Below, piece after piece: positions 20,234 to 43,532 of a stretch of DNA of 44,490 nt. The translations under genes and the position numbers were made by a program. The stretch spans positions 1 to 44,490 of the forward strand of contig JACDCD010000067.1 of NCBI GenBank assembly GCA_013694625.1, read 5' to 3'. The stretch's first letter is position 1. Each line of letters starts with the position of its first letter. Below the pieces are notes generated by a model. It ran no database searches. It was not told the origin of the DNA and was given only the letters and a program-made list of their open reading frames with translations. Source of the DNA: Actinomycetota bacterium (GTDB lineage Bacteria; Actinomycetota; CADDZG01; WHSQ01).

Positions 20234-20236
20234 ACC

Positions 20237-21283: not shown

Positions 21284-21290
21284 GGAGGAG

Positions 21291-22907
21291 ATGATGACTA
21301 CCCGGGCAGCCGTTATCGGTCTCGACGGCTCGGCTTGGCATCTGCTCGACCCTATGTTGGAGGCGGGCATCATGCCCCGGCTCGATGCACTGATGAAGCG
21401 CGGCGCCCACGGCACTCTTGTTTCGACGGTTCCGACCTACACGCCGCCGGCCTGGACCGCAGCAGCCACGGGCGTCAATCCCGGCCGCCACGGAATCTAC
21501 GGTTTCATTGGTGGCAACGCGCAGAACGAGCACCTCGAGTTGGTGCACTCCGGAAGGATCAAGGCTCCGACGATCTGGGAGATCGCCAACGCCCAAGGGG
21601 CCCGGACGGGCATCTACAACCTCCCGCTGACCTATCCACCACGCCGGCTCGATGGCTGGATGGTCTCCGGAATGATGACGCCCGGCTACGGTGAACACCT
21701 GAAGGGGTTCGCATGGCCCCCCGACCTGGAGCCGCAGATCCTGGAGCGGGCCCCCGGTTACGTGGTCGACGTCAGCGCTAATTGGGAGCTGGACTGGCGC
21801 AACACGACGTTGTGCGACCGCGTGATGGCATCGCTCCATCAGCGCCTCGTTGTCCTGGAGGGGTTGCTCGAGCTCGATCCGCCGGCCATCCTCTTCGCCG
21901 TGCTGGAGGCGCCCGACCGGCTCCAGCATGTCTACCTCCGCTACATGGATCCGGACGATGAGCTGTACGACACGGGCGAGGGTCGCGTCGTCCGCGTAGA
22001 GGTCGAACGCTGTTTCAGGGCAATGGACGACATCGTCGGCCTGGTGGACGACTACGCCGGGAGCAGCGGAGGCGTGATCGTGTGCTCCGACCACGGGTTC
22101 ACCGCCTGGGAGGTGAGCGTCCACACCAACGCTCTGCTCGAGCGTTGGGGATATCTGAAGCTCAAGCCGCGGGCTCGGCTCCTGCAGACACCGGCGGCCC
22201 GCAGCCTCGTGCCCCTGGCCCGCCGGGCCCTGCCCGCGAAGCTAGCGCGCCGGGCCAAGGGTGTGACCTTCAGCGCCGTCGACTGGTCCAGGACGACCGC
22301 CTTCGCGTCGCCGATTCCACAGCAGGGGATCTTCGTCAACGTCGCCGGGCGGGAGCGCTTGGGCTGGGTTCCCCCGTCCGACCTGTCCCGCATCAAGGAC
22401 GACATCACCGCCCGCTTCTACGACCTCACCGGGCCCGACGGACGGCCTGTGACCGACCACGTCCACCGGTCGGAGGATGTCTTCCACGGGGACGCCCTCG
22501 ACGGCGCGCCGGATCTCCTCCCGGTGCTGAGAAACCACCACTTCGAGCTCGACGACGAGATCTTCCACCGGTCTCCCTTCACCGACCAGCACCATCTTCC
22601 CAGAGGAGTCCATCACCCGGACGGGGTCGTGATCGTTGCGGGCGGCGGGGTCAAGGCGGGCCATCCGGGACTGCGGGGATCGGTCATGGACGTGACCCCG
22701 ACGCTGCTGCACCTGGCCGGGCTCGAGGTTCCCGACGACCTCGACGGCAGCGTGCTGACCGAGGCTTTCACCCCCCGTGCCCTGGAGGACAACCCCGTGA
22801 GGATGCTTGCACCCCTATCATCTAGACCGAAGGACGAGTCTTCGCCCTACTCAGACGAGGAGGAAGCGGTCATCGAGGAATCCCTGAGGGGCCTCGGCTA
22901 CCTCTAG
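21291..22907 (+). CDS. Cytosolic alkaline-phosphatase-superfamily enzyme (type I phosphodiesterase-like), paralog 1
   Basis: 538 residues, no signal peptide, of the predicted AP-superfamily phosphohydrolase/phosphomutase group (COG3379-like). Metal ligands come in the standard order: Asp12 (VIGLDGSAW), candidate nucleophile Thr51 (TYTPPAWT), D-x3-H in APDRLQH, DH in CSDHGF and the late His in GVHHPDG. The C-terminus SSPYSDEEEAVIEESLRGLGYL is shared almost word for word with the paralog at 32805-34421. It is preceded by GGAG and two candidate ATGs (21291, 21294). Its place after G1P dehydrogenase suggests it acts on a phosphate ester or diester of that pathway; phosphatase, phosphodiesterase and phosphotransferase activities are all possible. 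Confidence 0.85.
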   Translation: MMTTRAAVIGLDGSAWHLLDPMLEAGIMPRLDALMKRGAHGTLVSTVPTYTPPAWTAAATGVNPGRHGIYGFIGGNAQNEHLELVHSGRIKAPTIWEIANAQGARTGIYNLPLTYPPRRLDGWMVSGMMTPGYGEHLKGFAWPPDLEPQILERAPGYVVDVSANWELDWRNTTLCDRVMASLHQRLVVLEGLLELDPPAILFAVLEAPDRLQHVYLRYMDPDDELYDTGEGRVVRVEVERCFRAMDDIVGLVDDYAGSSGGVIVCSDHGFTAWEVSVHTNALLERWGYLKLKPRARLLQTPAARSLVPLARRALPAKLARRAKGVTFSAVDWSRTTAFASPIPQQGIFVNVAGRERLGWVPPSDLSRIKDDITARFYDLTGPDGRPVTDHVHRSEDVFHGDALDGAPDLLPVLRNHHFELDDEIFHRSPFTDQHHLPRGVHHPDGVVIVAGGGVKAGHPGLRGSVMDVTPTLLHLAGLEVPDDLDGSVLTEAFTPRALEDNPVRMLAPLSSRPKDESSPYSDEEEAVIEESLRGLGYL

Positions 22908-22924
22908 CCGGGACTCAAACCACC

Positions 22925-24382
22925 ATGGCACAGACGGCGCCGGCAATCGAGCCGGCCAAGACGCCCCAGCGGCAGCCGCTCCAGCATCGAAGCGCAAAGC
23001 GGATCGCGTCGCGCATGCTCGCGGATGCGGTGGCGGTCTCGACTGCGCTCTTCCTGTCGTCGACTCTGCGCTTCGAGATCCTGGGCGCAACCCCTGCAGC
23101 GAAGATCGACTACGCCCTCATCACCGGCCTTGCGACGCCGGTTTGGATCGTGCTGTTCTGGCTCTACGGGCTCTACGAGCCCAGGCAGGTCCTGAGCCCC
23201 GTCAACGAGTTCAAACAGACCTTCCACGGAGTCCTCGGCGGCACGGTGGTGCTGTTCCTGGTGGACTCCGTGCTGGATCTGGAGCTCGCGCGTGGGTGGG
23301 TGCTGCTGGCCTTCGGCCTCGGCCTGGCCATCGTCGGCGCCGAGCGCCTTGCGATCAGAAAGACGCTTCACTGGTTACGGCGGCGCGGCGGCGACGCCAC
23401 CCGAACCATTGTGGTCGGAATCAATCACGAGGCGCGTACGATCGCACGAGCGCTCGAGCGCGAGAGGTGGCTCGGATACCGGATCGTCGGCTTCGTCGAC
23501 GAGCAGGCGCCCGTGGGACAGGAGATAGGCGATGGCCACCGGGTCATCGGCGCTCCGGCCGAGCTCGGCGACCTCGTCAGGGACTTCGATGCAACTCTCG
23601 TGCTCGTCGCCGCCTCCGCCTTCGAGGCGTCGAAGATCAATCGTTTGTTCTGGGGATTGCAGGACGCGGACGTCGACCTCCAGATCACGACCGGCACCAT
23701 CGAGCTGCTTGCTTCTCGCATGATCGTGCAGTCGGTGGCGGGAGTGCCCCTTCTGTATGTCCGCCGCACCGGCATGACCCGGCTGCAGCGTGCCACCAAA
23801 CGAACCATCGACGTCATCGGCTCCCTGGTTCTACTCACTCTGCTCGCACCGTTCTTCGCGGCGGTCGCCTTGTGGATCAGACGGGATTCCCAGGGACAGG
23901 TGTTCTTCAGACAAGTGCGATCAGGTCAAGACGGCGAACTGTTCATGTGCTGGAAATTCCGCACCATGCAGGAGGACGCCGAGCGGCGGCTCGCCGAGCT
24001 CGAGCACCTGTCCGAAGGTCCTGGACTGTTGTTCAAATTGAGGGAAGACCCCCGCATCACAAGGAGCGGCAAGGTCCTCCGGCGCTACTCGCTCGACGAG
24101 CTCCCCCAATTGGCCAACGTCCTCCGCGGCGAGATGAGCCTGGTCGGCCCCCGCCCCGCCCTGCCCTCTGAGGTCGAGCAGTATGACGATTGGGTCCGCA
24201 ACCGCCTGCAGGTCAAGCCCGGGATGACGGGCCTCTGGCAAGTGAGCGGCCGAACCGAAACGAGCTTTTCCGATTACGTCAGATACGACCTCTTCTATAT
24301 CCAGAACTGGTCGCTGTCACTGGACCTGTGGATCATGTGGCGAACCCTGAGAGCCGTCCTGAGCGCCGAGGGCGCCCACTAG
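22925..24382 (+). CDS. Polyprenyl-phosphate sugar-1-phosphate transferase (exopolysaccharide initiation)
   Basis: A WbaP/CpsE-type enzyme of 485 residues that loads the first sugar phosphate onto undecaprenyl phosphate. The N-terminal half has four membrane helices (about residues 30-145) and a Rossmann-like CoA-binding/DUF1420-type domain (TIVVGINHEARTIARAL, GYRIVGFVDE). The catalytic half starts with the helix KRTIDVIGSLVLLTLLAPFF, then FFRQVRSGQDGELFMCWKFRTM, LREDPRITRSGKVLRRYSLDELPQLANVL, SLVGPRPALPSEV and VKPGMTGLWQVSGR, all invariant in the family. It ends the operon begun by DUF4012 (17 bp after the AP-superfamily gene) and anchors this operon firmly to surface glycan synthesis. Confidence 0.93.
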   Translation: MAQTAPAIEPAKTPQRQPLQHRSAKRIASRMLADAVAVSTALFLSSTLRFEILGATPAAKIDYALITGLATPVWIVLFWLYGLYEPRQVLSPVNEFKQTFHGVLGGTVVLFLVDSVLDLELARGWVLLAFGLGLAIVGAERLAIRKTLHWLRRRGGDATRTIVVGINHEARTIARALERERWLGYRIVGFVDEQAPVGQEIGDGHRVIGAPAELGDLVRDFDATLVLVAASAFEASKINRLFWGLQDADVDLQITTGTIELLASRMIVQSVAGVPLLYVRRTGMTRLQRATKRTIDVIGSLVLLTLLAPFFAAVALWIRRDSQGQVFFRQVRSGQDGELFMCWKFRTMQEDAERRLAELEHLSEGPGLLFKLREDPRITRSGKVLRRYSLDELPQLANVLRGEMSLVGPRPALPSEVEQYDDWVRNRLQVKPGMTGLWQVSGRTETSFSDYVRYDLFYIQNWSLSLDLWIMWRTLRAVLSAEGAH

Positions 24383-27721: not shown

Positions 27722-29362
27722 ATGAGACGCCGGCTGGCCACCTGGCTGGGGGTCTTGTTGATGTCGGGCTGTACCGGCGCACCGACCCAGCCCGACACAG
27801 CGGGGGAATCCGCCAGCAGCACCTCGCGCCCCGCCCGAGACGGAGCCGGGGCGGGCGCATCCTGCGGCGAGACTCGCCAGCTCGTCCGTCGGGTCCAGCG
27901 CGGCTACACCGGGCGAAGCTCTCCGGACGTCTCCCTGATCCCCAGGGCGCCCAACTACATCGGCACCGCAGCCATGCCTGCTCACTCGGGCCCCTGGGAC
28001 TACCTCGCCGAAGTGCCGCTGGCGCTCTACGGACCGGGCCACATCCGGGCCCGGGGCCCGGTCGACCGGCGCGCCACCATGGCCGACCTTGCTCCGACCC
28101 AGGCGCGCCTGATCGGCTTCAGTTCCTGGCCTCGCCGAGACGGGCGGGTGCTCGATACCGCCCTGGCGAAGGGCTCCCCGACACCGCCGCGCGCCGTGGT
28201 CACGATCGTGTGGGACGGGGGCGGCAACAATGTGCTGGAGGAGCATCCCCGGTCGTGGCCATACCTGCGCACGATGATGGAGCGCGGAACCTCGTTTGAA
28301 AGGATGACGATCGGATCGTCCCCCTCGGTCACTCCGCCGGTTCACACGACCTTGGGCACGGGTGCGTGGCCCGCGACCCACGGCATTCCCGCCCTGAAGT
28401 TTCGCACCAGGGACAACCGCTACGTTGATCCGTTCGAGGGCCTCGACCCCGGGCGCATCCGGGTGGGGACGCTGGCGGATCTGTACGACGAGGCCGAGGG
28501 CAACCGCCCGGTCGCGGGGGCTTTCGGAGCAATCGACTGGCATCTCGGAATGATCGGGCAGGGCTCGGACTGGCCGGAGGGTGACCGCGACCCGGTCGTC
28601 CTGCTCAACTACCTGGGAGCCACGCTCTCCAACGAAGCCATCTACACGCTCCCGGCGATCGAAGACCCAGCGGCGCTGAGCAAGTACACCGACGCACTCG
28701 ATGCGAGAGACGGGGCCCTGGACGCGCGGTGGCGCGGGCACAACCTCGGCGACGAGACCGTGCGTTACGCCAGCCCCGCTCACGTGGCCTACCAGCAGCA
28801 CCTACTCGAGCGCTTCATCGCCTCGACGGACATTGGGGAAGACTCGATTCCGGACCTCCTGTACGTCAACTTCAAGATGAGCGACGACGCCGGACATGGC
28901 TGGGGGATGACTTCGCCGGAGACGGCGGACGCGCTGAGGGCGCAGGATCGTGCCCTCAAGCGTCTAGCCGAAACTCTGAACCGGACCGTGGGCCGGAGAC
29001 AGTGGGTGCTGATGCTCACCGCCGACCACGGGCAGATGCCCTATCCACATGAGTCGGGCGGATGGGCGATTGCCGGCTCGGAACTGCAGGCCGACGCAAA
29101 CGCCGCCCTCGATCACACCGACAACGGGATCGATCTTGTCGAGTTCGTCAAATCCGCCGGCATGTATGTGCGCCGGGATGATCTCCGCCCCAACGACCTG
29201 ACCCTGGAGAATCTGGCGCAGTGGGCTTACAGCTACCGGGTCGAGGCCAACCTCAGGGAGGGCGAGCAGATACCACCTTCGTACGCGGGCGACCCCGGCG
29301 ACCGGCTGTTCGACGCCGCCCTGGCAGGAGACCACGTGGGCGCCGGTCGCTGTCGCCCATAG
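27722..29362 (+). CDS. Circularly permuted alkaline-phosphatase-superfamily lipoprotein A
   Basis: 546 residues, with a lipobox (LLMSGC, Cys17), so membrane-anchored outside. Residues 60-145 match the C-terminal part of ordinary type I phosphodiesterases: GYTGRSSPDV, HSGPWDYLAEVPLALYGPG with the last metal His (His88), and DLAPT. Only then comes the usual N-terminal part: WDGGG (Asp165), SPSVTP (candidate nucleophile Thr204), TTLGTGAWPATHGI; then D-x2-GH in DDAGH (Asp388, His392) and TADHG (Asp435, His436). So all metal ligands are present but the order is rotated. Mature Cys residues are only Cys48 and Cys544, one at each end. Convergent with paralog B. Substrate unknown. Confidence 0.85.
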   Translation: MRRRLATWLGVLLMSGCTGAPTQPDTAGESASSTSRPARDGAGAGASCGETRQLVRRVQRGYTGRSSPDVSLIPRAPNYIGTAAMPAHSGPWDYLAEVPLALYGPGHIRARGPVDRRATMADLAPTQARLIGFSSWPRRDGRVLDTALAKGSPTPPRAVVTIVWDGGGNNVLEEHPRSWPYLRTMMERGTSFERMTIGSSPSVTPPVHTTLGTGAWPATHGIPALKFRTRDNRYVDPFEGLDPGRIRVGTLADLYDEAEGNRPVAGAFGAIDWHLGMIGQGSDWPEGDRDPVVLLNYLGATLSNEAIYTLPAIEDPAALSKYTDALDARDGALDARWRGHNLGDETVRYASPAHVAYQQHLLERFIASTDIGEDSIPDLLYVNFKMSDDAGHGWGMTSPETADALRAQDRALKRLAETLNRTVGRRQWVLMLTADHGQMPYPHESGGWAIAGSELQADANAALDHTDNGIDLVEFVKSAGMYVRRDDLRPNDLTLENLAQWAYSYRVEANLREGEQIPPSYAGDPGDRLFDAALAGDHVGAGRCRP

Positions 29363-29396
29363 GCGCACGAAGAGTTTCCCGGGACTTCGGGCACGG

Positions 29397-31136
29397 TCAT
29401 CGGGGCTGCGCGCAGCCCCAGATCCGCCCCAGGGCATCACTCGGGAACGCGGCCGAGAGGATCGGCTCCCTGACTCTGGCCCGGTAGCCCTCTGGAACCT
29501 CACTCCCGGTCTCGACGTTGTCCTCGAGCCGGTACCCGAGGAGCCATCTGGCGACCCCCTCGGCCGATATGCGCCCGTTCTCGAGCGCCCCCTGATCGAT
29601 CCAGAATCCCACCGGGCTCGACTCCGCCACCAGGTCGCCGGCCCCCATGCCGAAACGTTCCTCGGCGTCGCCGATCAGCTCGGTCATGTTTATGGGCCAT
29701 GCGCCACTGGCCTCAGCGAGCGGTCCCTGTCCGTGATCCGCCGTCATGGCCACAACCCATTGCCCCCGCCCCACCTCACGGTCCAGCCAACTGGTGAGAT
29801 CGCCCAACGCATCGTCTACGTACCTCAGCGTCGGCCTCATCTCGGGCAGCAGCATGTTCCACGCATGCCCCACCTCGTCCGGCTGTTTGTAATTCGTGTA
29901 GAAGAGATCGGGGATGTCGTCCTCGCCGAAGCGTTCGCGCTTCAGCAGGGCCTTTATCAAGTCCGTCTGATGCAGGGTCCAGGCGGGGGTGTCGCGGCGC
30001 AGGGTCGGGTCACGCAGTATCTCGTGTCCCATCCAGGCGGAATCCAGGCGACCATCGTCGAGGTCCACCGAGCGGGTGTCTCCCTGCAATCCCGGGACCT
30101 GCTTGAGTGATTGGGGAAACGTGTACCACCGGCGGTTGGTGACAAGGCTCTCCTGCGTATCCACGATCACGGCGACGTCCTTGTCACCCCCGGGCCTGTA
30201 GGCACCGTGTCCGATCATGCCGAGGTGCCAGGACTTGAAAGCGAGCATGCCGATCTGTGCCTGATTGCCGGTGGTCGGATCGTAGACATCGGCGAGCGAG
30301 GGAATCAGGAGGTTGCTGGGGGTCTTGTTCGGATACGCCGCCTTGATTGCACCGTCCACACGAACGGGAATCCCGACAACACCGTGTTGCTTGGGAAACG
30401 CGCCGGTTCCCATCGTGGTGTGCACCGCAGGCGTCACCGAGGGGGACGAACCCACGACGGCATCCTCGATGGAGGACCCCTCCGTCATCAGCCTCGCCAG
30501 GTTGGGCCACGCATCGGGCCATGCGTCGAGGACGTTGGTTCCCCCTCCATCCCACACGATCGTGAGGATCAGCTTCGGTCGGCCCGGCCGGTTTGCCTCA
30601 GGTACCAGGACCTCGTCGATCGGCGCGCCCACATCGGCGGGGGCCGGCGTGTCCAGGAGCTCTGCGTACGTCGGTGCGAGGTCGGCGAGGGTCACCTCCC
30701 GGTCGAGGGACAAGCTCCCCTGCGAGCGAATGAACCCCGGCCCATAGAACACCAGGGGAACCCGCTGCACGTAGTCCCACGGGCCCGAGTGGCTCTGTCC
30801 CACAAAGGCACCGAAGAAGTTGGGCTCGCGCGGGACAACCATCACGTCCGGTGAGCGCCCCGGAAAATACCCCCTCCGGATTCGGCGCAGCGTCTCCAGG
30901 GGGAGGCTGCATCCCGATCTGAACGGGTTGGCCGACGGCTCGGTCACGGTGGCGAGGGGTGGAGGAGTGTACCGGGGCCCCGGTGTGCCTTCGGGCTGCT
31001 CCTTGGAGGCGCCGGACGAGGAGGGACCTGAGGAGGTACCCGAGGCGGTGCAGGCGCCTATCGCCAAAGCGGCGGCCAGACACCATGTCATCCTCCGGTC
31101 GTGCCGCGCCCCGGGCCGGCCATTCCTCAAGCTCAC
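29397..31136 (-). CDS. Circularly permuted alkaline-phosphatase-superfamily lipoprotein B
   Basis: 579 residues from GTG 31136; ATG 31091 (564 residues) is an alternative but has GGAGG touching it. Lipobox IGAC with Cys29. Same rotated order as A: YFPGRSPDVMVVP, His116 in SHSGPWDYVQRVPLVFYGPG, DLAPT; then Asp196 (WDGGG), Thr235 (SPSVTP), Asp420/His424 (DEVGH), Asp467/His468 (TADHG). There is no His at all after TADHG, so the third-site His can only come from the N-terminal segment. Non-lipobox mature cysteines are Cys76 and Cys575. Divergent from the GT2 operon and convergent with A. Probably a zinc phosphodiesterase or phosphatase on the cell surface; substrate unknown. Confidence 0.85.
   Translation of the reverse strand: MSLRNGRPGARHDRRMTWCLAAALAIGACTASGTSSGPSSSGASKEQPEGTPGPRYTPPPLATVTEPSANPFRSGCSLPLETLRRIRRGYFPGRSPDVMVVPREPNFFGAFVGQSHSGPWDYVQRVPLVFYGPGFIRSQGSLSLDREVTLADLAPTYAELLDTPAPADVGAPIDEVLVPEANRPGRPKLILTIVWDGGGTNVLDAWPDAWPNLARLMTEGSSIEDAVVGSSPSVTPAVHTTMGTGAFPKQHGVVGIPVRVDGAIKAAYPNKTPSNLLIPSLADVYDPTTGNQAQIGMLAFKSWHLGMIGHGAYRPGGDKDVAVIVDTQESLVTNRRWYTFPQSLKQVPGLQGDTRSVDLDDGRLDSAWMGHEILRDPTLRRDTPAWTLHQTDLIKALLKRERFGEDDIPDLFYTNYKQPDEVGHAWNMLLPEMRPTLRYVDDALGDLTSWLDREVGRGQWVVAMTADHGQGPLAEASGAWPINMTELIGDAEERFGMGAGDLVAESSPVGFWIDQGALENGRISAEGVARWLLGYRLEDNVETGSEVPEGYRARVREPILSAAFPSDALGRIWGCAQPR
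29402..29419. repeat. 18-bp perfect palindrome in the last codons of gene B
   Basis: GGGGCTGCGCGCAGCCCC lies in the codons for the C-terminal GCAQP of lipoprotein B, between the convergent ends of A and B. As RNA it forms a GC hairpin from either strand and may help terminate A (40 nt after its stop). No U-run. Confidence 0.45.
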
Positions 31137-31165
31137 TTGCGTCTTAGGCTACTCTCCTAAGCCGT

Positions 31166-32143
31166 ATGAGCGACCAGGACAAGGCATCATCGAGCTTCAT
31201 CATTGCGACGCGCAACCGGCCGGAGGAGCTTCGGGTCACGGTGGAGAGCATCGTGGCCCAAACGGTCCTGCCTGGCGAGCTTTGCATCGTGGATTCGAGC
31301 TCCGACACACCCGCGCGCTCCCACATCGAAGGGCTGTGCGCCGATTCGGGGCTCCGCCTCGACTACGTGCACCCTGCGCCGCGAGGCCTGCCCAGACAGA
31401 GAAATTTCGGCCTCGACCGCACCTCCGGCGATCCCGTCTTCCTGGTCGACGACGACGTCTTCCTGGCTCCCGACTGTCACGAGGTCATCCTCGGCGAGTA
31501 CGACCGCTGGGGCCCCGAGCTGGGTGGGGTCAGAGCTGCTCCCGTCCGCCCCGCTCGTCCTCCGCTCATCTCGATCATGTGGCGCAAGCTCTTCGGCATC
31601 GGCGCCTGGTGGCCTGAGGCGAGCGGCCGGGTCAGAGCCGGATTCTGGTTGGAAGGCACCTCCGAGTCGGTGGGCGTCCGGAAACAGGAGGCGTTCGTCG
31701 GCTATTTCATGTCATACCGTCGCGAGGTTTTCGACCACGAACGCTTCGACGAAGCGCTTTCCGGCTACGCCAGCCAGGAGGACATCGACTTCTCCTACAG
31801 GGTCTCTCGCCGCTACATCCTCATCCAGACGCCGAGGGCCCGTTGCGATCATTTCAAGACCGGGACCGACCGCATGCCGTCGCGCAAGCTCGAACGCATG
31901 AAGCTCGCAAATCACTTCTATCTGCATCGCAAGAACATGCCGCAGGATCTCAGACACAAGGGGGCCCTGTGGTGGGGGTTACTCGGGTTGTTGATCCACA
32001 ACGTGGTCAAGGCGACCGCACGCCGGGATCCCGGCCTCGTCACCGGCATTCTCATGGGGGCCTGGGAGCAGGGCCGCGGCAGGGGGTTGATAGACCCGGC
32101 CTCTGAGGACGGCGCGCCGGTGCCCCAGCGGGCTGTGGGATGA
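31166..32143 (+). CDS. Glycosyltransferase family 2
   Basis: A 325-residue GT-A enzyme. SFIIATRNRPEELRVTVESI is the nucleotide-binding start, FLVDDDVFLAPDC holds the metal DxD, and ASQEDIDFSYRVSR contains the catalytic-base ED region. A hydrophobic, possibly membrane-associated stretch lies near residues 265-280 (ALWWGLLGLLIHNVV). It begins a three-gene operon; the next start overlaps its stop (ATGA). A TACTCT box 10 nt before the ATG may serve as promoter, shared back-to-back with gene B. The pairing with a CDP-alcohol transferase suggests glycosylation of, or beside, a phosphodiester-linked acceptor; donor unknown. Confidence 0.88.
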   Translation: MSDQDKASSSFIIATRNRPEELRVTVESIVAQTVLPGELCIVDSSSDTPARSHIEGLCADSGLRLDYVHPAPRGLPRQRNFGLDRTSGDPVFLVDDDVFLAPDCHEVILGEYDRWGPELGGVRAAPVRPARPPLISIMWRKLFGIGAWWPEASGRVRAGFWLEGTSESVGVRKQEAFVGYFMSYRREVFDHERFDEALSGYASQEDIDFSYRVSRRYILIQTPRARCDHFKTGTDRMPSRKLERMKLANHFYLHRKNMPQDLRHKGALWWGLLGLLIHNVVKATARRDPGLVTGILMGAWEQGRGRGLIDPASEDGAPVPQRAVG

Positions 32144-32808
32144 GCAGTGCCGCCGCTGCCGGAATGAAGGCCAAGAAGCGCGACTACTGGTGGACGGTCC
32201 TCGCAGTCGATCCCATCGCGGTCCCGTTGGCGCAGAGGTTTGCGGACCGCAGGCTCATGACGGCCGATCAGGCCACCCTGGTCTCTATCCTGCTCGCCGT
32301 CCCGATCGGCCCCGCCTATGCTTCGGGGTCGCGGGCGGGCCTCATAGGTGGAGCGGCGCTCTTCTACCTCGCATTCCTGTTCGATTGCGTCGACGGCAAG
32401 GTGGCGAGGGCGCTCGGCACCGCCAGCCACCGGGGCGAGATGCTCGACGAGCTGGCCGATGCGGTGCGCCGGGTCAGTGCGTCTCTGGGTCTCGCGGTTT
32501 ACCTGTGGCGCTTCGGAACCGGCGGGAGCTTCTGGTTGGCCGTCGCCTACGTGGTGATTGCGTTCTTCTTCGCAGACATCTCAGGGGAAACCCGGGGCGA
32601 ACCCCAGACGGCCCTGGGGGGGAGATGGTCCCAGGCCCTGGCACGCCGGAGGCTACACCCGACACCCGGAACGCCCGACATCGGGGCGATCGCATTCATC
32701 TTCGGCCCGGTGACCGGTTTCGTGGTCCCCTCACTTGCGGTGGGGGTGACGATGTTGATCGCGGGAACCCTCCTGGTGCTCCGGAGACGATTGAAGAAAA
32801 ACCCATGA
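32140..32808 (+). CDS. CDP-alcohol phosphatidyltransferase family protein
   Basis: A polytopic membrane enzyme of 222 residues that displaces CMP from a CDP-activated alcohol or lipid to form a phosphodiester. The full signature D-x2-D-G-x2-A-R-x8-G-x3-D-x3-D is seen in DCVDGKVARALGTASHRG and MLDELAD. About five or six membrane helices surround it. After the motif there is a soluble-looking loop (GETRGEPQTALGGRWSQAL) that is longer than in phosphatidylinositolphosphate synthases. It overlaps both neighbours by 4 bp. With the nucleotidyltransferase and G1P dehydrogenase in the operon at 19.5-21.3 kb it could use CDP-glycerol made from sn-glycerol 1-phosphate, or a CDP-diacylglycerol; this is inference. 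Confidence 0.88.
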   Translation: MSSAAAAGMKAKKRDYWWTVLAVDPIAVPLAQRFADRRLMTADQATLVSILLAVPIGPAYASGSRAGLIGGAALFYLAFLFDCVDGKVARALGTASHRGEMLDELADAVRRVSASLGLAVYLWRFGTGGSFWLAVAYVVIAFFFADISGETRGEPQTALGGRWSQALARRRLHPTPGTPDIGAIAFIFGPVTGFVVPSLAVGVTMLIAGTLLVLRRRLKKNP

Positions 32809-34421
32809 GCAGGGTGCTCATGCTCGGCCTCGACGGTGTCACCTACAACATTCTCGACCCCGCGTTCGCAGAGGGCCACATGCCGACGCTGAAGAAGCTT
32901 CTGCACGACGGGGCGTCGGGTGTCCTCTCCTCGACCCATCCCCCCTATACGCCTCCCGGATGGACATCCATCTTCACCGGGGTGAACCCGGGCCGCCACG
33001 GCATCTTCGGGTTCACTCTGGGACACGCTCAGGATCCGGGCGGGCTCGTTCGGCTCGACCGGGTCAAGGCGCCGGCGATCTGGAACGCCGCCAACGCACA
33101 GGGCATGAGCATGGGGGTTTTCAACGTGCCCATGACCTACCCACCCCCGAGCGTGGACGGGTTCTCCGTCGCCGGCATGCTGACACCGGAAGGCGGAGGT
33201 GCCACCCCGGAGAACTTCACCCATCCTCCGGAGCTCGCCGGCGACATCGCGAGGGTTGCGGGGGGTTACGCAATCGACATCAGGGTCGACTACGACGAAG
33301 ACTACAAGACCACGGCGATCATCGACCGGCTCTCCGAGAACCTCGCAAGAAAGCGGCGGGCTCTGCAGTTCCTCCTGGCCGAGCGCGGGGAGGTGCCGCT
33401 TCTCTTTGTCGTCCTCGAGGCCCCGGATCGGCTCATGCACTCCCACTACAAGTACATCGACCCGCGCTGCGAGCACTACAGGCGCGCCGAGGCAGAGCCA
33501 ATCAGGGAGCGCATTTGGAGCTTCTTCGACGAGATGGACGCGGTGATGGCCGATCTCCTAGGGTGGGCCGGCCCCGACGGTTTCACCGTGACGATGTCAG
33601 ATCACGGCTTCGGGCCCAAGGAAAAGGTCGTCAACGTCAATCTCGCCCTGAGGGAGTGGGGCCTGCTGTCGGTTGGCGGCGCCGGGACCGTCGGCAGCTC
33701 GGCGGGGCTTCGCCGGCTCGCCCGGAAGGCAAAGGGCGTGGTGCCGAAGTCGGTGTGGCGGCGGGCGAAGGGCGCAGCCCATTCGTCCATCGACTGGTCG
33801 AAGACCAGAGCCTTCTCCGCACCGAACCCGCAGCAGGGCATCTATGTGAACCTCAAGGGCCGGGAGTCGGGGGGCATCGTGGACCCGTCCGACTACGAGG
33901 CGGTGCGAGACGAGATCACCGCCAGGTTCCACGATCTGGTCGACCCCGACGACGGCGCGCCGGTCCTCGATCGCATGTACAAGAGGGAGGAGGTCATCGA
34001 AGGGCCCGAGGCGGCCGATGGGCCCGACCTCTTTCCGGTCTGCCGTGATTACACCTATGAGCTGTCCGAGGGCCTCTACTCCTCCAATGTGCTAACCGAT
34101 TACAGGGCGCTGCCACGGGGCTTCCATCACATGAACGGGATCTTCGGGGTCGCCGGGCCCGGGGTACCGGACGCCTCCGGCTTGACGGCCAGCGTGCTCG
34201 ACATAGCTCCCACCACCCTCTACCTGGCCGGGCTGGACCTCCCGATCATGGACGGGCGCGTCATCACCGAGGCGCTCCCCGAGGGCATGGTCGCCGGACG
34301 ACCCATTGCCATCAGGACCATGGACCTTCCGCTTGCGGGTGACGGGACCGAGTCGTCGCCCTACTCGGCCGACGAAGAGCAACAGATCGAGGAGTCTCTG
34401 CGCAACCTCGGTTACCTGTAG
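32805..34421 (+). CDS. Cytosolic alkaline-phosphatase-superfamily enzyme, paralog 2
   Basis: 538 residues, the same length as paralog 1 (21291-22907) and clearly homologous throughout. ATG 32805 overlaps the preceding stop (ATGA). Standard ligand order: Asp in LMLGLDGVTYN, nucleophile Thr in YTPPGWTSIFTG, D-x3-H in APDRLMH, DH in MSDHGFGPKEK and a late His in FHHMNG. SSIDWSKTRAFSAPNPQQGIY and the C-terminal EEQQIEESLRNLGYL are shared with paralog 1. No signal peptide. It closes the GT2 / CDP-alcohol transferase operon just as paralog 1 follows G1P dehydrogenase, so the two probably act on related phosphoesters. Activity is not established. Confidence 0.86.
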   Translation: MSRVLMLGLDGVTYNILDPAFAEGHMPTLKKLLHDGASGVLSSTHPPYTPPGWTSIFTGVNPGRHGIFGFTLGHAQDPGGLVRLDRVKAPAIWNAANAQGMSMGVFNVPMTYPPPSVDGFSVAGMLTPEGGGATPENFTHPPELAGDIARVAGGYAIDIRVDYDEDYKTTAIIDRLSENLARKRRALQFLLAERGEVPLLFVVLEAPDRLMHSHYKYIDPRCEHYRRAEAEPIRERIWSFFDEMDAVMADLLGWAGPDGFTVTMSDHGFGPKEKVVNVNLALREWGLLSVGGAGTVGSSAGLRRLARKAKGVVPKSVWRRAKGAAHSSIDWSKTRAFSAPNPQQGIYVNLKGRESGGIVDPSDYEAVRDEITARFHDLVDPDDGAPVLDRMYKREEVIEGPEAADGPDLFPVCRDYTYELSEGLYSSNVLTDYRALPRGFHHMNGIFGVAGPGVPDASGLTASVLDIAPTTLYLAGLDLPIMDGRVITEALPEGMVAGRPIAIRTMDLPLAGDGTESSPYSADEEQQIEESLRNLGYL

Positions 34422-34543
34422 CCCGACATTGCCGGTGCTCCGTCGCTCGAGAGTGGCGCCTGCGCCAAGGCCGCCGTGGTCGTCGTTCAAAAAGCGCCCG
34501 CACTGATGAGCGATCGCGTCGACTAACTTTCGCGCCGAGGCAC

Positions 34544-34549
34544 TAGTAT
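34544..34549 (+). promoter_or_regulatory. -10 box before the leader ORF / O-antigen ligase
   Basis: TAGTAT, 11 nt before ATG 34561. A plausible promoter giving a leader of only a few nucleotides. The rest of the 240-bp gap holds a small TGGCG/CGCCA hairpin (34454-34467) and nothing else recognisable. Confidence 0.4.
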
Positions 34550-34560
34550 CGGCGTCACCC

Positions 34561-34665
34561 ATGGCCCCCGTCTCTCCGACCCCGCGCGCCATCCTCGGCC
34601 ACCTGAGGTCACAACCGGCAGGCCGGGACAAGCGTGGGCCTCGGCTTTTTTCTCCGGGTGGTTGA
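34561..34665 (+). CDS. Possible 34-residue leader peptide coupled to the ligase gene
   Basis: ATG 34561 opens a 34-codon frame (MAPVSPTPRAILGHLRSQ...) whose TGA stop overlaps the TTG start of the next gene by 4 bp (TTGA). The same overlap geometry joins real genes throughout the window. The peptide is basic and Pro/Arg-rich with no known domain. It would explain how a TTG start with no Shine-Dalgarno is translated. It could also be a chance frame. Confidence 0.35.
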   Translation: MAPVSPTPRAILGHLRSQPAGRDKRGPRLFSPGG

Positions 34666-36422
34666 TCCTGCGCACCAACACGTCAGATCCCCAGCCCCTG
34701 CCCTCCGGCCCGTCCGAGGCGAATGCACGCCCGAGGTGGCTCGACCGCCTGCCTTCGCCGCACTCGGGGTCCCCGGCCCGGTGGCTCTGGGGGATGACCC
34801 TGGCCGGTGGCGTCGGCGGGCTGCTCGCATGGGCATTTGGGGCCGGGGTCGTCGCGTTGTGGTGCTTCACGGGCGCGGCGGTTGCCCTTGCCGTCGTGCT
34901 GCCGTATCCGTGGGCTTTCGTGTCGCCCTTGTACGTGGGTCTGGCGGGATGGCTCGTGGACATGCTTCCGTTCGTCATCCTGGCAGGATGGGGAGCGGTC
35001 GTGCTTCGCTGGGGCGTCTCGCTCGTACGGGCAAGGAGGTGGCCACGGGGAGCGAGGTGGACTCTTCTCCCCGTAGGTTTGCTCGTCTGGACGATGTTCG
35101 GCGCCCTCGTCATCAGCGCCGCCGACGCGAGGCATTTCGCACTGCTCCTGGCCATGCAGGTCCTCGCCAGCGGAGTGCTGCTGGCTGCGGTCGACACACT
35201 GACCGAGCTCCACGACCGCTCCAGGGTGGTCACCGGGCTCGTCGCCTACGTCGTGGTACTCACGATCGCGGTGATCGCGGTATGGGCCGGCTTGCCGCTC
35301 GAGGATCTCCAGGACAAGGCAACGGCAAGGTTGGTGGAACGCGCCTACGGCGTGGACGCCTTCCAGAACAATGTCGGGATGATCAAGGACGAAAAGTCGA
35401 GTAAGGGCGGTGGCCTCGAGCTCAAGCGCGACATCGACAGCCTCGCCGAGCGCGATCCCCGCCTGCCGGCCTTTGAGGTGTTCCAACCCAGGTTCAGGGT
35501 TTTTCCCAAGAAACTGATCGTCCGGTTCCAAGGTTCGGCGCGACCCTGGCAGGACCAGCTCGAACAGCGCGGCGTCGAGCTCCTCTACGACAACATCGGC
35601 TTTGGAGCCGCCAGCACCGTTGCTCGCATGCGGTCGTTCCCGCGCAATGCGAATACCTATGCCGGCATAGGCGCGGTGCTGTTGCCTTTTGCTTTCTTTC
35701 TTGCGTGGACGGGTCGCCGCCGGATGGGCTGGCTAGGCTGGGCCGGTGTTGCAGCCTGCCTGTTCGGCATTGGATTCTCCTTGACGCGGGGGGCGTGGCT
35801 TGCTGCCGCAACCGGCATCCTCTTCCTGGTGATCGCCGGGCGGCTCTCGAGACCGCTCAAATTTCAAATAGCGGCAGGCTTCCTCATCGGTGCAGTCGTT
35901 CTCTCGGCGTTCTACCTGGTGAAGTACAACGTCGATCCCTATAACGCGCGCGCCGAAGGCGGGGGCAGTGTCAACACCCGAAGCCAGTTGTACGGCGATA
36001 CGATCCGATCGGTCAACGGCCTCAACCTTCTGCTCGGCTACGGGACGGAGAAGCCGCGCACAAGCGACGGTGTCTCCCATGCGCTCGGGCGGTACATCCC
36101 GCGCGCCGGAACGCACTCTACCTACCTCAATTACCTGTTCCGGACGGGCGTGCCCGGAGCGCTTATGATCACCGCCCTCTACGTCATTGCAGGCCTGCAT
36201 GCGCTTGCCGCGGCACGCTCGCGGAGTGGCAGTGAGGGCCTCTTCGGCAACGCAGCCCTGGCGGGCGTGGTTGCGGCGGCGGCTCACGCGGTGGTCCAGA
36301 ACCTGTACGTCGAGCCCATCTACACTCTAACGATCTGCCTCGTCCTCGGCGTGGCGATGGCCGGTGGGCTCGCCCCGGGGGTTTCGATCATCCCGGGGCG
36401 CAGGGCCGGCGCCCGGCTCTGA
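34662..36422 (+). CDS. O-antigen ligase / Wzy-like polymerase family membrane protein
   Basis: 586 residues, about 11 membrane helices, resembling the O-antigen ligase (PF04932) family that transfers or polymerises lipid-linked glycans on the outer face. Start is TTG 34662, chosen from the coupling to the short upstream frame; the first in-frame ATG is about 44 residues later and would still precede the first helix. A soluble segment of roughly 105 residues (about 215-320; KDEKSSKGGGLELKRD, FEVFQPRFRVFPKKLIVRFQG) sits between helices in the middle, ahead of NANTYAGIGAVLLPF. The catalytic-type elements are SLTRGAW and the late loop THSTYLNYLFRTGVPG. It fits a surface polysaccharide locus. Ligase and polymerase cannot be told apart. 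Confidence 0.82.
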   Translation: MILRTNTSDPQPLPSGPSEANARPRWLDRLPSPHSGSPARWLWGMTLAGGVGGLLAWAFGAGVVALWCFTGAAVALAVVLPYPWAFVSPLYVGLAGWLVDMLPFVILAGWGAVVLRWGVSLVRARRWPRGARWTLLPVGLLVWTMFGALVISAADARHFALLLAMQVLASGVLLAAVDTLTELHDRSRVVTGLVAYVVVLTIAVIAVWAGLPLEDLQDKATARLVERAYGVDAFQNNVGMIKDEKSSKGGGLELKRDIDSLAERDPRLPAFEVFQPRFRVFPKKLIVRFQGSARPWQDQLEQRGVELLYDNIGFGAASTVARMRSFPRNANTYAGIGAVLLPFAFFLAWTGRRRMGWLGWAGVAACLFGIGFSLTRGAWLAAATGILFLVIAGRLSRPLKFQIAAGFLIGAVVLSAFYLVKYNVDPYNARAEGGGSVNTRSQLYGDTIRSVNGLNLLLGYGTEKPRTSDGVSHALGRYIPRAGTHSTYLNYLFRTGVPGALMITALYVIAGLHALAAARSRSGSEGLFGNAALAGVVAAAAHAVVQNLYVEPIYTLTICLVLGVAMAGGLAPGVSIIPGRRAGARL

Positions 36423-36491
36423 CTACGCCTCTCAGCCAACCGATCACAAAACCGGCCCAGAACATCGACTCGGCCGGGGGAGTCTGAGAAG

Positions 36492-38309
36492 ATGCGCCCG
36501 ATGACGTCTCGAGCCGCTCGACCTGAGATCAGGCGTCGAGGTGCCGCAGTGGTCCTCGCCGTCGCCGTGGTTATCTCGGCCGGGTGCTCGGGTGCCCCCG
36601 GCCCCCGGGAAGGCCCGGTCGCCGGGCCGTCGCGCGCTCCGGGGATGAAGGGCGCATCCAACGGGGGCGCCCCCGAGGAGATCGCTTCGCAGCCCGGAGG
36701 GCGCACGGCACATCGCAGGGAAGAGCCGCGGCGCGGCAAGCCCAAGGGCTGGTTCGATGCCGCCTGCGGCATGAGCGAGACGCTCCTCAGGCGGACACTG
36801 CGCGGGAATTGGCTCGGGCGAGGCCCGAATCTCAGCCTCATCTCCCACCGGGGAAACCCCTTCGGAGACTTCACCTTCAGCACCACCCATTCGGGCCCTT
36901 GGGACTTCCTTCAGCGCGTCCCGCTGCTGTTGTACGGGCCCGGGTTCATCAGACCCCGAGGCGATCTGCAGATCGGACGAGAGGTGACGCTTGCGGATGT
37001 CGTTCCTACGCTTGCCGGCCTCCTCGAGACGCCGGCTCCGGCCACCGCCGTCGGCCGCCCCATCAAATCGGCTCTCCTGCCTCGGGACAGGCGGTCCAAG
37101 GATCTGCGGCTGATCGTCACGGTCGTCTGGGACGGCGGCGGCTCGAACGTGCTCCGGAGATGGAAGGGGTCCTGGCCCTTCCTCGCCTCCCTGACCAAAC
37201 GGGGAACCTTCGTCACGAACGCCACCGTGGGCTCTTCTCCGAGTGTCACTCCGGCGATCCACGCGACGCTCGGGACCGGCGCGTGGCCCAGCCGGCACGG
37301 GATCGTAAACATCACGCAACGCGACAACGGATACCTGACCGGCTCCTTCGAGTCCCTGTCCCCCGATCACCTCGAAGCCAAGACGCTGGCGGATGTCTGG
37401 GACCGGAGAACCGGCAACAGAGCCAAGATCGGCCTGGTCGCGAAGGATGGCCTCCATCTCGGCATGATGGGCCATGGAGCTTACCTCCCTGGAGGAGACC
37501 GAGACATCGCCGCAATAACCGGCGCCGGAGATGCACCATGGTCGCCGGGGACGAACGAGCTCTGGTATCAGCTGCCCGGCTACCTGCTCTCGGTTCCCGG
37601 GATCGAGACCGCCGCAGCGACCGTGGATCGCGATGACGGCAAGTTGGACGGGCGCTGGATGGGACACGACATCCCCGGCGATCTCCTGGCAGACCCCGGC
37701 TTCAACAAGACCCCTGTTGAAACCCTTTACCAGACCAAGGTCAGCAAGTTGCTTCTCGCCAACGAGGGCTTTGGTGAAGATCGCGTCACCGACATGTTCT
37801 TTACGAACTACAAAGACGTCGATTACATGGGCCATGCTTATAACTTCTTCGAGCCCGAGGTGCGCAACACGATCGAGTACTCGGACGCAGAGCTGCGCGA
37901 GCTCGTGCGATTCGTAAATTCCCGGGTCGGCGAGAAGAGGTGGGTACTGGTCTTGACTGCGGATCACGGCCAAGCGCCGCTCCCCCAGGCAGTCGGGGAT
38001 TGGCCCATCGACGTGCTCGAGTTGACCAATGACCTCGGGCGGTTTGCCGATCAACCGGCGGCCGAGCTCGTGGAGCACGTGAAACAAACCGGCGTGTGGC
38101 TCGATCGCGGCCTGTTGAGCTCCTCTGGGATGGACCTGCGGGATGTGGCTAACTTTCTCCTTGACTACACGATCGAGGACAACGCCGGAGACAGTCCAGT
38201 GCCGAGGGCCTACCTGGATCGCCTCAGTGAACGGATCTTCGACGCCGTGATCCCAAGCTCCCAGTTACGGCGTGCTCTGGGGTGTGCGGAGTCTGCCTCG
38301 CCCGGATAG
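36492..38309 (+). CDS. Circularly permuted alkaline-phosphatase-superfamily lipoprotein C
   Basis: 605 residues; ATG 36492 has GGGGGAG 9 nt upstream. Lipobox SAGC (Cys32), followed by a longer Arg/Gly/Pro linker than in A and B. The rotated order is the same: WLGRGPNLSLISH, His133 in THSGPWDFLQRVPLLLYGPG, VVPT; then Asp214 (WDGGG), Thr253 (SPSVTP), Asp444/His448 (DYMGH), Asp491/His492 (TADHG). The only mature non-lipobox cysteines are Cys92 and Cys598. LHLGMMGHGAYLPGGDRD is shared with B, so B and C are the closest pair. It lies between the O-antigen ligase and the GH51-like gene, all on the plus strand. Substrate unknown. Confidence 0.85.
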   Translation: MRPMTSRAARPEIRRRGAAVVLAVAVVISAGCSGAPGPREGPVAGPSRAPGMKGASNGGAPEEIASQPGGRTAHRREEPRRGKPKGWFDAACGMSETLLRRTLRGNWLGRGPNLSLISHRGNPFGDFTFSTTHSGPWDFLQRVPLLLYGPGFIRPRGDLQIGREVTLADVVPTLAGLLETPAPATAVGRPIKSALLPRDRRSKDLRLIVTVVWDGGGSNVLRRWKGSWPFLASLTKRGTFVTNATVGSSPSVTPAIHATLGTGAWPSRHGIVNITQRDNGYLTGSFESLSPDHLEAKTLADVWDRRTGNRAKIGLVAKDGLHLGMMGHGAYLPGGDRDIAAITGAGDAPWSPGTNELWYQLPGYLLSVPGIETAAATVDRDDGKLDGRWMGHDIPGDLLADPGFNKTPVETLYQTKVSKLLLANEGFGEDRVTDMFFTNYKDVDYMGHAYNFFEPEVRNTIEYSDAELRELVRFVNSRVGEKRWVLVLTADHGQAPLPQAVGDWPIDVLELTNDLGRFADQPAAELVEHVKQTGVWLDRGLLSSSGMDLRDVANFLLDYTIEDNAGDSPVPRAYLDRLSERIFDAVIPSSQLRRALGCAESASPG

Positions 38310-40586: not shown

Positions 40587-42125
40587 GTGAGGCGGAGGAG
40601 TACTGGGCTGCTGTTGGCTTTCCTTCTGGTTGCAGGGGCATGCCAAGGGGACGGCGGTTCCGAGAACACCCCCTCGCGCCAATCGAACACAGAGCAAGAG
40701 GATGGTGATCCTGCGGGCACCACGGCCGCCCCGGCAACTTCGGACCCCAACGATATGGCGCCCGTGAAAGATCCGGAAGAGGAGACGGCCGAAGACACGC
40801 TCGTGATTCCCCCGCCCTACACGCAAGACCAGGCCCCCCAACTGCCCGAGTTCATCAGGGAGGGCATCGCAGAACAGGTGCAAGCCGAGTTGTCGCCCCC
40901 CGACACCCTTGCCCTCGCCCGGGAAAAGATCAAACACGTTGTCTTCATCGTCAAGGAGAACCGGACCTTCGATCACATGTTCGGGCGCTTCCCTGGGGCA
41001 GAGGGGGCCACGGAAGGTATGACCTGTGATGGGCGTGTCATACCGTTGCGGCGCGCCGAAGACGTGACCGAAAGCGTCGATCACTCGTTTCTCGCTGGAC
41101 TCGTCGCGGTGAACGGTGGACAGATGAACTGTTTCGACAGGGTACGCGGCAGCGAGACGGCTCCGGATTCCTATGTGCAGTATCACGAACAGGACATCCC
41201 GAACTACTGGCGTTACGCAAAGGAGTTCACTCTCGGCGACCGCTTCTTCAGCTCGGTGTACGGGCCCACAACGGTGGAGCATCTATGGGTCATCGCGGCG
41301 CAGTCAGATAGGTTCGTCGACCTCCAGCGGCCCGAGCAGGCCGGCACCGGAGAACCGCGGGAGTTCTGCGAGGACGATGCCGAGCTCATGTGGTCGTTCG
41401 GCAAGCTCACCGGATCGGAGGAGAATGCCGCCTACAGGCTCGAGGAGATCCCTGCGGTTCTAGAGCTCGTCAACCGTTACTGGATCGAACGCCCTCCCTG
41501 CACCGACATCAAGATTCTTCCCGACCTCTTGGAGAAGAGAGACATCCCGTGGAAGTACTACTTCTCCGGCGCCGGCCCCATGCACGTCATGAAGATGATT
41601 CGGCACGTCCGTTTCGGGCCGATGTGGGACAAGGTCGTGCCCGTCTCGTCGCTCTACGAGGACGTTCGGGCAGAACGGCTCCCCTCGGTCTCGTGGGTCA
41701 TCCCGGCGTGGCAGCACAGTGACCATCCAGAAGCCAACGGGATCTGCGCCGGGGAGAACTGGACCGTCCGAACCCTCAACGCAATTATGGATAGCCCACA
41801 ATGGAAGAACACGGCCGTTTTCCTTACGTGGGATGACTATGGCGGCTTCTACGACCATGTGGCTCCTCCGCATGTCGATCTCTACGGAATGGGGCCACGC
41901 GTTCCCATGCTGTTGATCTCGCCGTGGGCGCGACGAGGTTACATCGATCATCAGACCTACGATTTCTCCTCGGTGCTGAGAACGATCGAGGAGATCTTCG
42001 GCCTGGCTCCCCTCGCCCAACGTGACAGCCGCGCAACCGACATGCTCGGGGCATTCGATTTCGATCAAGAACCGCTTGATCCATTGATCTTGAACCAAAC
42101 GCAATGCCCCGAGCCGGCTGACTGA
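40587..42125 (+). CDS. Phospholipase C / acid-phosphatase-type phosphoesterase lipoprotein (PF04185)
   Basis: 512 residues from GTG 40587. Lipobox VAGAC (Cys19) and an acidic linker to about 95. The phosphoesterase family core is complete: [57 protein letters not shown] and [18 protein letters not shown]...[15 protein letters not shown]. These enzymes are in the AP superfamily and include mycobacterial phospholipases C and bacterial acid phosphatases; [10 protein letters not shown] varies from the usual ENRSFDHYFG. Phosphatidyl lipids, phosphosugars or teichoic-type phosphodiesters are possible substrates. It is one of five exported phosphoesterase-like proteins in 16 kb. Confidence 0.88.
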
Positions 42126-42180: not shown

Positions 42181-43437
42181 CTACTTCTGGCGGGTCAGTT
42201 GAATGGTGGCCGTGGGTGCGGTGCGGTTGTGGGCATAGTCTCGTGCTCGAACAAAGTACTTGTAGCGCTTGGTGAAGTAAGTGTCGTTGTCGTTGTAAGA
42301 GTTGCTTCCCGACGTACCCACCATGCGCGGTGGTCCCGTCTTCTTCACCCGGTAGACTTCGTACCGCCCGACGCCGCTGCCGCCGGTATCGGTCGAGCCC
42401 GCCCAGGAGAGTTGAATGCCGGAGCTAACGTTCCGAGCCTGAAGACGGTTCGGCACGCTGGGGGCCACTCTGTCCGGCCCCAGTGCTGCCCAACGAAAGC
42501 GGTGGTCGGAATAATAGCGTGCCGGGTCGTTTGTCTTGTTGTTGTATGAGCTGTCCACCCCTGCGCCATAGACGCCGGCACGGGCGAAGATGTAGTCGAC
42601 CGCCGTGCTCATCGGCCCCCGCACGGCATAGACCGAGTCGCGGTAGTTTCGAGGCCCCGTGAGCCAACTCCAGTAGGGCGAGGGGTGGTTCGGCGAGGTC
42701 TGGCGGCTCGTGTTGAAGTCCCCGCCGATGACGTTGTAGCGGTTGGAATCGATATCGGGACGCTTCGCGGCAAGCTTGTTTGTGATATTTCGGGTTGTCT
42801 CGGTGACACTGGACTCCTGGATGTGGATGCTCGTCATAGCGAAAGTCATCGCCGTGCCGTTTCGACGCGCGAAGCCATAGGCATGCCCTTTGTACATGGG
42901 CCGGTTCGCGCTCGAATCCTTTGGCTCCTCGAGCCACCCTCCGTCACCCACCTTTGTCATGGTGGCCGTGTTGAGCAAGATGGCGCTGTCACGGACGATG
43001 ATCCGTTTCGGTGTGCCGGTGTAGGGATCCCGGGCTCCTCCGAACGCCACCGTGTATCTGTGCCCGGTCCTGTTCGAGAGGAGTTGGGCCACGGCGGCGG
43101 CGCTCTTGCGCCGGACCTCTTGAAGGAGCAGGACGTCGGGGTCGTGAGGCACACGGGACAGCACCCGGGACACGAAGATCGGCAGCTCCCGCATGTTCTT
43201 CAGATCGCGGTCGTTGAAGCCCTCCTGGAGATTGGCGGTGATGAATACGGTCTTCTGGGTCGGAGAGAGTGATCCGGCCCCGGCCACCCCAACGTGAAGC
43301 AACGCAGTTGCGCACATCGACGCGGCCACCACGACCGAGCATGATCTGCGTGCTCGGGCTCGCAAACTTACCGCCGGGCCTGCGTGACATGGTGGTGGCT
43401 GGATGGGCGCTGAGCCCTGAGAATCTAACTGCGGCAT
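42181..43437 (-). CDS. Secreted endonuclease/exonuclease/phosphatase-family protein with FN3 domain
   Basis: 418 residues. ATG 43437 is set by GAGGAG 6 nt upstream (an open frame further up is riboswitch RNA). A basic N-region and hydrophobic stretch (SVVVAASMCATALLHVGVAGAGS, about residues 33-55) form a signal peptide. The DNase I-like fold follows: ITANLQEG, LLLQEVRR (metal Glu), TSIHIQ, GGDFNTS (Asp/Asn), VDYIFARAG and YYSDHRFRW (catalytic Asp-His). A fibronectin type III domain closes the protein (SVPNRLQARNVSSGIQLSW, YEVYRV, YKYFVRARD). It may cut extracellular DNA, or a phospholipid or phosphosugar. Its mRNA leader holds a candidate c-di-GMP riboswitch, an important clue to regulation. 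Confidence 0.87.
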   Translation of the reverse strand: MPQLDSQGSAPIQPPPCHAGPAVSLRARARRSCSVVVAASMCATALLHVGVAGAGSLSPTQKTVFITANLQEGFNDRDLKNMRELPIFVSRVLSRVPHDPDVLLLQEVRRKSAAAVAQLLSNRTGHRYTVAFGGARDPYTGTPKRIIVRDSAILLNTATMTKVGDGGWLEEPKDSSANRPMYKGHAYGFARRNGTAMTFAMTSIHIQESSVTETTRNITNKLAAKRPDIDSNRYNVIGGDFNTSRQTSPNHPSPYWSWLTGPRNYRDSVYAVRGPMSTAVDYIFARAGVYGAGVDSSYNNKTNDPARYYSDHRFRWAALGPDRVAPSVPNRLQARNVSSGIQLSWAGSTDTGGSGVGRYEVYRVKKTGPPRMVGTSGSNSYNDNDTYFTKRYKYFVRARDYAHNRTAPTATIQLTRQK

Positions 43438-43445
43438 CTGGAACT

Positions 43446-43532
43446 CCTCGGTTCGGAAGCTGGGCGGCCTCCTGAGAGGTCCCTGGCTTTGCGCGCCCAC
43501 CTCGCGATGGGTTTGCCTTTATCGCTCGAGGT
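43446..43532 (-). promoter_or_regulatory. Candidate c-di-GMP-I (GEMM-I) riboswitch
   Basis: Read on the minus strand, the leader has the conserved core GATAAAGGCAAACC (43523-43509), a helix CCCATC/GGTGGG capped by a GCGA (GNRA) tetraloop, the second core GCAAAGCC (43492-43485), a variable hairpin CCTC-TCAG-GAGG, and the tetraloop-receptor-side 3' core CCAGCTTCCGAACC (about 43462-43449). Their order and spacing match GEMM-I. The closing helix CCTCG (43531-43527) with CGAGG (43450-43446) overlaps the Shine-Dalgarno GAGGAG (43449-43444), which suggests ligand-induced shut-off of translation. A competing hairpin pairs 43532-43521 with 43508-43499 and would free that site. Confidence 0.8.

Follow-up and report, generated by a model that had tools for sequence, protein, structure and literature searches.

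Actinobacterial lipoproteins that are very probably natural circular permutants of PafA-type alkaline phosphatase superfamily enzymes

The window (the whole stretch of DNA analysed, 44,490 nucleotides) contains three intact genes for alkaline phosphatase (AP) superfamily lipoproteins, designated A, B and C and located where the earlier note had placed them, each of which has a permuted block order, with a moved C-terminal block in front of its catalytic core. Protein A (27722..29362, + strand; 546 aa) has the moved block at residues ~46-152 (27857..28177, + strand), with Cys48 at the new N-terminus and the predicted metal ligand His88, and the catalytic core at residues ~156-544 (28187..29353, + strand), which matches only positions 1-226 of the PF01663 profile. 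Protein B (29397..31136, - strand; 579 aa), convergent with A, has its moved block at residues 77-177 (30606..30908, - strand), which align to residues 435-533 of PafA and include the predicted metal ligand His116, and its core at residues ~187-579 (29400..30578, - strand), with D196, T235 (the nucleophile), D420, H424, D467 and H468, and with Cys575 at the new C-terminus, the probable partner of Cys76. Protein C (36492..38309, + strand; 605 aa) has its moved block at residues ~87-202 (36750..37097, + strand; predicted metal ligand His133) and its core at residues ~206-605 (37107..38306, + strand). Lipobox motifs were read from the sequence without a predictor (LMSGC in A, AIGAC in B, SAGC in C), and on that basis the three proteins should be exported lipoproteins on the outer face of the membrane. 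Two cytosolic AP-superfamily paralogs in the window (21291..22907 and 32811..34421, both + strand) serve as normal-order controls: the PF01663 match starts at the N-terminus of each, and they keep the canonical order, as the earlier note had stated.

That note had reported that the same motifs come first in A, B and C, namely (Y/W)xxGR..P(D/N)V, HSGPWD(Y/F), VPL, YGPG and PT, that WDGGG, SPSVTP, D..GH and TADHG follow the moved block, and that B has no histidine at all after TADHG; each of these statements holds for the translated proteins. After TADHG, C has one histidine (in EHVKQ) and A has several, none of them conserved. PF01663 matches B at residues ~190-490, but only with profile positions 2-239 of 342; thus, the canonical C-terminal third is absent from its usual place.

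When B alone was compared with PDB sequences by phmmer, PafA (5tj3) was matched in three out-of-order pieces (B residues 181-255 to PafA 12-88, 380-532 to 254-412, and 77-177 to 435-533). Block matches obtained from a single protein are modest (i-E 4e-4 for the third piece), which leaves some room for a reading in which the similarity of the N-terminal block to the C-terminus of PafA is accidental, the block being an unrelated domain and the metal site being completed within the core. A profile of 50 family members matches crystallized PafA with E 6.2e-50, again in three out-of-order pieces (profile 111-224 to PafA 14-146, 303-463 to 248-414, and 7-107 to 435-535), all of them significant (i-E 1.8e-7, 3.6e-26 and 1.1e-11, respectively), and matches PhoK in three stretches likewise. 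In HHalign comparison with a profile built from six PafA-type proteins of normal order (Bacteroidota and Proteobacteria), the moved block alone scores 99.1% probability (E 1.5e-18). With an invariant histidine at the position of the metal-binding one, no C-terminal block after TADHG and no histidine there in B, the unrelated-domain reading retains almost no credibility, having been refuted already by the profile comparison.

The block comparison that the earlier note had proposed for HHpred was run as HHalign. In native order, the family profile gave two separate alignments to the normal-order profile, 113-461 to columns 29-429 (score 244) and 14-110 to columns 460-559 (score 125), as that note had predicted; after rotation of the family profile, a single collinear alignment of 461 columns was obtained (score 349, E 4e-45), the result expected of a circular permutant, for which rotation should restore collinearity with the canonical family. 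Single-domain HMMER scores of native and rotated sequences did not discriminate between the two orders (medians 51.5 vs 51.6 bits) because the weakly conserved middle splits the match whichever order is used, whereas HHalign did discriminate. The moved block is first in 62 of the 63 family members examined, the remaining one being interrupted by a contig end, and the plain order C-N-middle is found in 58; the four others, all with C first, have a split N block (two), no scored N block (one), or joined N and middle blocks (one). Normal-order PafA-type proteins of other phyla were the controls for block order. Along G131:C117, the PafA model NF042991 is matched in the order 451-549, 36-110, 285-441. 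The permuted block order is far beyond chance.

The residues that correspond to the metal ligands of PafA-type enzymes (H46, D126, D350, H354, D397 and H398 in the aligned proteins; add 70 for the numbering of B) are invariant in all 50 aligned family members, and the nucleophile T165 is Thr in 49 and Ser in one. His46 is supplied by the moved block and aligns with the histidine of the canonical C-terminal block, which supports the earlier proposal that the last metal-binding histidine comes from the N-terminal block. The two-metal site would be rebuilt from both ends of the chain, with His from the first block, an Asp and two Asp/His pairs from the second, and Thr as the nucleophile, in a chain that would fold as one AP-type alpha/beta/alpha unit; the geometry of this site is inferred from a model. 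The structure prediction that had been proposed, made for B by AlphaFold2 with the family alignment, is a single confident fold that includes the moved block (pLDDT 95.6, pTM 0.94). The block is ~23% of the chain, so that its unconfident placement would keep pTM near 0.77. Foldseek comparison of the model with the PDB ranked PafA first (E 3e-12), then PhoK, XacNPP and PhnA, with probability 1.0 for PafA and PhoK; the TM-score to PafA is only 0.58 because the Foldseek alignment depends on chain order. Metal ligands, Thr/Ser nucleophile and predicted alpha/beta/alpha fold all meet the expectations for the AP superfamily, but the canonical order (nucleophile core first, block of the last metal-binding histidine at the C-terminus) is not met, being rotated. 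A rotation that preserves the active site, as originally inferred, is supported by the end-to-end alignment of the rotated profile and the invariant ligands; activity and metal-site distances are inferred only.

Cysteines in the aligned mature proteins are limited to positions 6 and 505, at the new termini: both are present in 46 of 50, neither in four, and a single one in none. This statistic is weaker than it appears because on the tree there were only two independent losses of the pair, and a phylogeny-aware test with two events has no power. A disulfide staple between the new termini (Cys76-Cys575 in B) is inferred as probable. The sequences show that the new termini opened in the loop region equivalent to PafA ~414-435 and that a short linker joins the old N- and C-termini. 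That the old termini lie near each other in space, and the new ones likewise, is inferred only indirectly, from this short linker, the terminal cysteine pair and the pTM of 0.94. Block order alone cannot exclude interchain swapping, and these genomes often have AP genes in tandem, so the protein could be a two-part fusion, not an intramolecular permutant, and form a domain-swapped dimer in which each chain supplies its moved block to the active site of the other. This is given a slim chance, considering that a single chain modelled alone reached the pTM given above, that each chain has one copy of each block in dozens of genomes, that the linker between the old termini is short, and that the terminal cysteine pair fits intramolecular closure. 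The best full explanation, held with high confidence, is that A, B and C are members of a family (family 1) of natural circular permutants of PafA-type AP-superfamily enzymes.

Family 1 shares with PafA (PDB 5tj3; NCBIfam NF042991) the core, the metal ligands, the Thr nucleophile, the C-terminal block and export, but differs in its rotated blocks, its new terminal cysteine pair and a lipoprotein anchor on the moved block. It does not meet the cut-off of 650 bits of the PafA equivalog NF042991, scoring 81-95 bits in three stretches (94.7 at best), nor the residue criterion of that equivalog (N100, K162, R164), these residues being replaced at the aligned columns by I/V/H, variable residues and W/I, respectively. 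Thus, the activity and substrate range of PafA cannot be transferred to the permuted family. In PafA, the three residues have a role in phosphomonoester specificity. PDB entry 5too has all three mutated together with T79. PhoK/SPAP of Sphingomonas (3q3q, 5xwi), the second-best PDB relative by profile and by fold, has the canonical order and low identity (17%). The N-terminal two thirds of PF01663 (XacNPP, ENPPs) match family 1 above the cut-off (97.8 vs 23 bits), but the C-terminal third of the profile is absent at the C-terminus of family 1 and has its counterpart in front.

From weak matches to PafA, a second family of permuted proteins was traced (family 2: L078, L080-L083, L086, L091-L100), which are cytosolic, ~490-530 aa long, and have the same block order as family 1. 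Rotation changes the HHalign result for family 2 from two matches (133, 79) to one (197); AlphaFold2 with nine sequences predicted a fold with pLDDT 82.1 and pTM 0.86, for which Foldseek found NPP and PhnA structures with probability 1.0. The closest PDB sequence to the family 2 core is not PafA but phosphonoacetate hydrolase, PhnA (3szy, 1ei6), which has the canonical order and lacks the N-terminal block. Members of family 2 (L091-L100 and others) have an extra N-terminal region of ~85 aa and occur in several Actinomycetota families, including in single-contig genomes. Two proteins of the actinobacterial family f13 (L079 211-1695, + strand; L084 1489-2946, - strand) have a normal-order AP domain after a membrane-like N-terminal region of ~210 aa.

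Unrooted trees, for which the sequences were first rotated, place family 1 together with normal-order PafA and leave family 2 outside this group (support 98/95 with 49 rows and 100 with 41 rows); two permutations, or one permutation plus a reversal, are suggested as the simplest readings. A single origin, with all permuted forms held together, was rejected (AU p 0.021 and 0.016), but given the long branches and a grouping that was chosen after the first tree had been seen, this rejection is suggestive only. The direction of the two order changes cannot be read from an unrooted tree, so the order with the C block before the core could be ancestral and that of PafA derived; this is highly improbable, with the canonical order found in PafA, PhoK, NPP, PhnA, sulfatases and other AP families, and permuted forms found only in Actinomycetota (other phyla were not searched systematically).

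Four secreted proteins of 1181-1389 aa (L113 1574-5116, + strand; L114 1121-4948, + strand; L115 1216-5244, - strand; L116 1328-5494, - strand) have four blocks in the order C1-N1-C2-N2, and from their sequences both units appear to retain catalytic residues. The outer blocks C1 and N2 show strong matches to family 2, and in L113, the sole protein scanned, the inner blocks N1-C2 form a single uninterrupted canonical PF01663 domain (positions 2-340 of 342); thus, a canonical domain is enclosed by the two halves of a permuted one. The same two observations disfavour a simple tandem duplicate of the permuted unit. Such a nested order would be expected to arise from three tandem copies by loss of the first N block and the last C block. 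There is about an even chance that at least two AP permutations took place in Actinomycetota at nearly the same loop, one from a PafA-like ancestor to the exported, disulfide-stapled family 1 and one in the cytosolic lineage of family 2, and that the four-block proteins are surviving relatives of tandem-duplication intermediates. L113 also has a CarboxypepD_reg-like domain after its AP blocks.

By whole-genome searches (a single-protein scan of the genome collection had found three loci only), family 1 is carried by 16 of the 24 genomes of the class, all within one family and with 2-10 matches each, and the full-length permuted form also occurs in the Actinomycetota families f9, f51 and f58 in a sample of 397 genomes. 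In plasmid records, only short partial PafA-type and PhnA-type matches were found. The genome of the window has nine relatives, one of which is a pseudoenzyme. This pseudoenzyme paralog is conserved across genomes (L009 1357-2340, + strand; L053 130-1473, - strand; L045, L046, L048, L051, L056): the metal-binding Asp is changed to Lys (Ala in L051) and the nucleophile Thr to Pro, another residue stands in place of the metal-binding His, and the Asp-His motif is gone, with the permuted block order and Cys6 (also Cys505 in L053) being kept. Genes of the pseudoenzyme often adjoin permuted genes of the active type, as judged from residues only.

The AP superfamily, which comprises phosphatases, sulfatases, NPPs, phosphonate hydrolases and mutases, is a standard model for the study of how enzymes evolve and of catalytic promiscuity. 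Domain models take the order of its chain to be constant, and the Pfam match here omits the moved block. The earlier note knew of no permuted AP fold, and a search of the open-access literature, which did not cover subscription papers and preprints, yielded no account of an AP-superfamily enzyme with a permuted chain. The same type of evolutionary event is known in different folds, those of the SGNH-like proteins AlgJ/AlgX (PMC9487903) and the GTPase YqeH (PMC2741578); as far as could be found, and with absence of evidence as the only ground, it is new for the AP superfamily. A natural, multi-copy and apparently repeated permutation in which all catalytic residues are kept indicates that the AP scaffold tolerates rewiring. 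Canonical, permuted, nested and dead forms are available as a matched set, with which one can test directly how chain order affects folding, metal binding and catalysis, and the natural cut site points to where AP circular permutants could be engineered.

Most likely, A, B and C act on phosphate esters at the external side of the membrane, by hydrolysis or by transfer, and differ from PafA in the substrates accepted; this function is inferred, as is catalysis itself. Phosphate-ester chemistry on a surface polymer is the best guess, though a tentative one, made because of neighbouring genes of surface-polysaccharide type in the window and in the related genome G009; phosphate scavenging, the main rival, is held to be only somewhat less likely. 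Neighbours in the window encode a sugar transferase, a GT2 glycosyltransferase, a CDP-alcohol phosphatidyltransferase, an O-antigen-ligase-like protein (Wzy_C), a MobA-like nucleotidyltransferase and an Fe-ADH_2 protein, and those of two permuted genes in G009 encode a WecG-type glycosyltransferase, a GT2 protein, a CDP-alcohol phosphotransferase and normal-order AP proteins. In the window, the genes of the surface-polysaccharide cluster (17505-24382 and 31166-36422) are interspersed with AP-superfamily genes of both the normal and the permuted order. Two more proteins of phosphoesterase type, a PF04185 phosphoesterase (40587-42125) and a member of the Exo_endo_phos family (42181-43500), are encoded close to the permuted lipoproteins and are probably exported. 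The source genome (2.7 Mb) has 21 PF01663 matches, an unusual expansion, and contains a further cluster of at least six PF01663 proteins (G000:C171 2735-20772).
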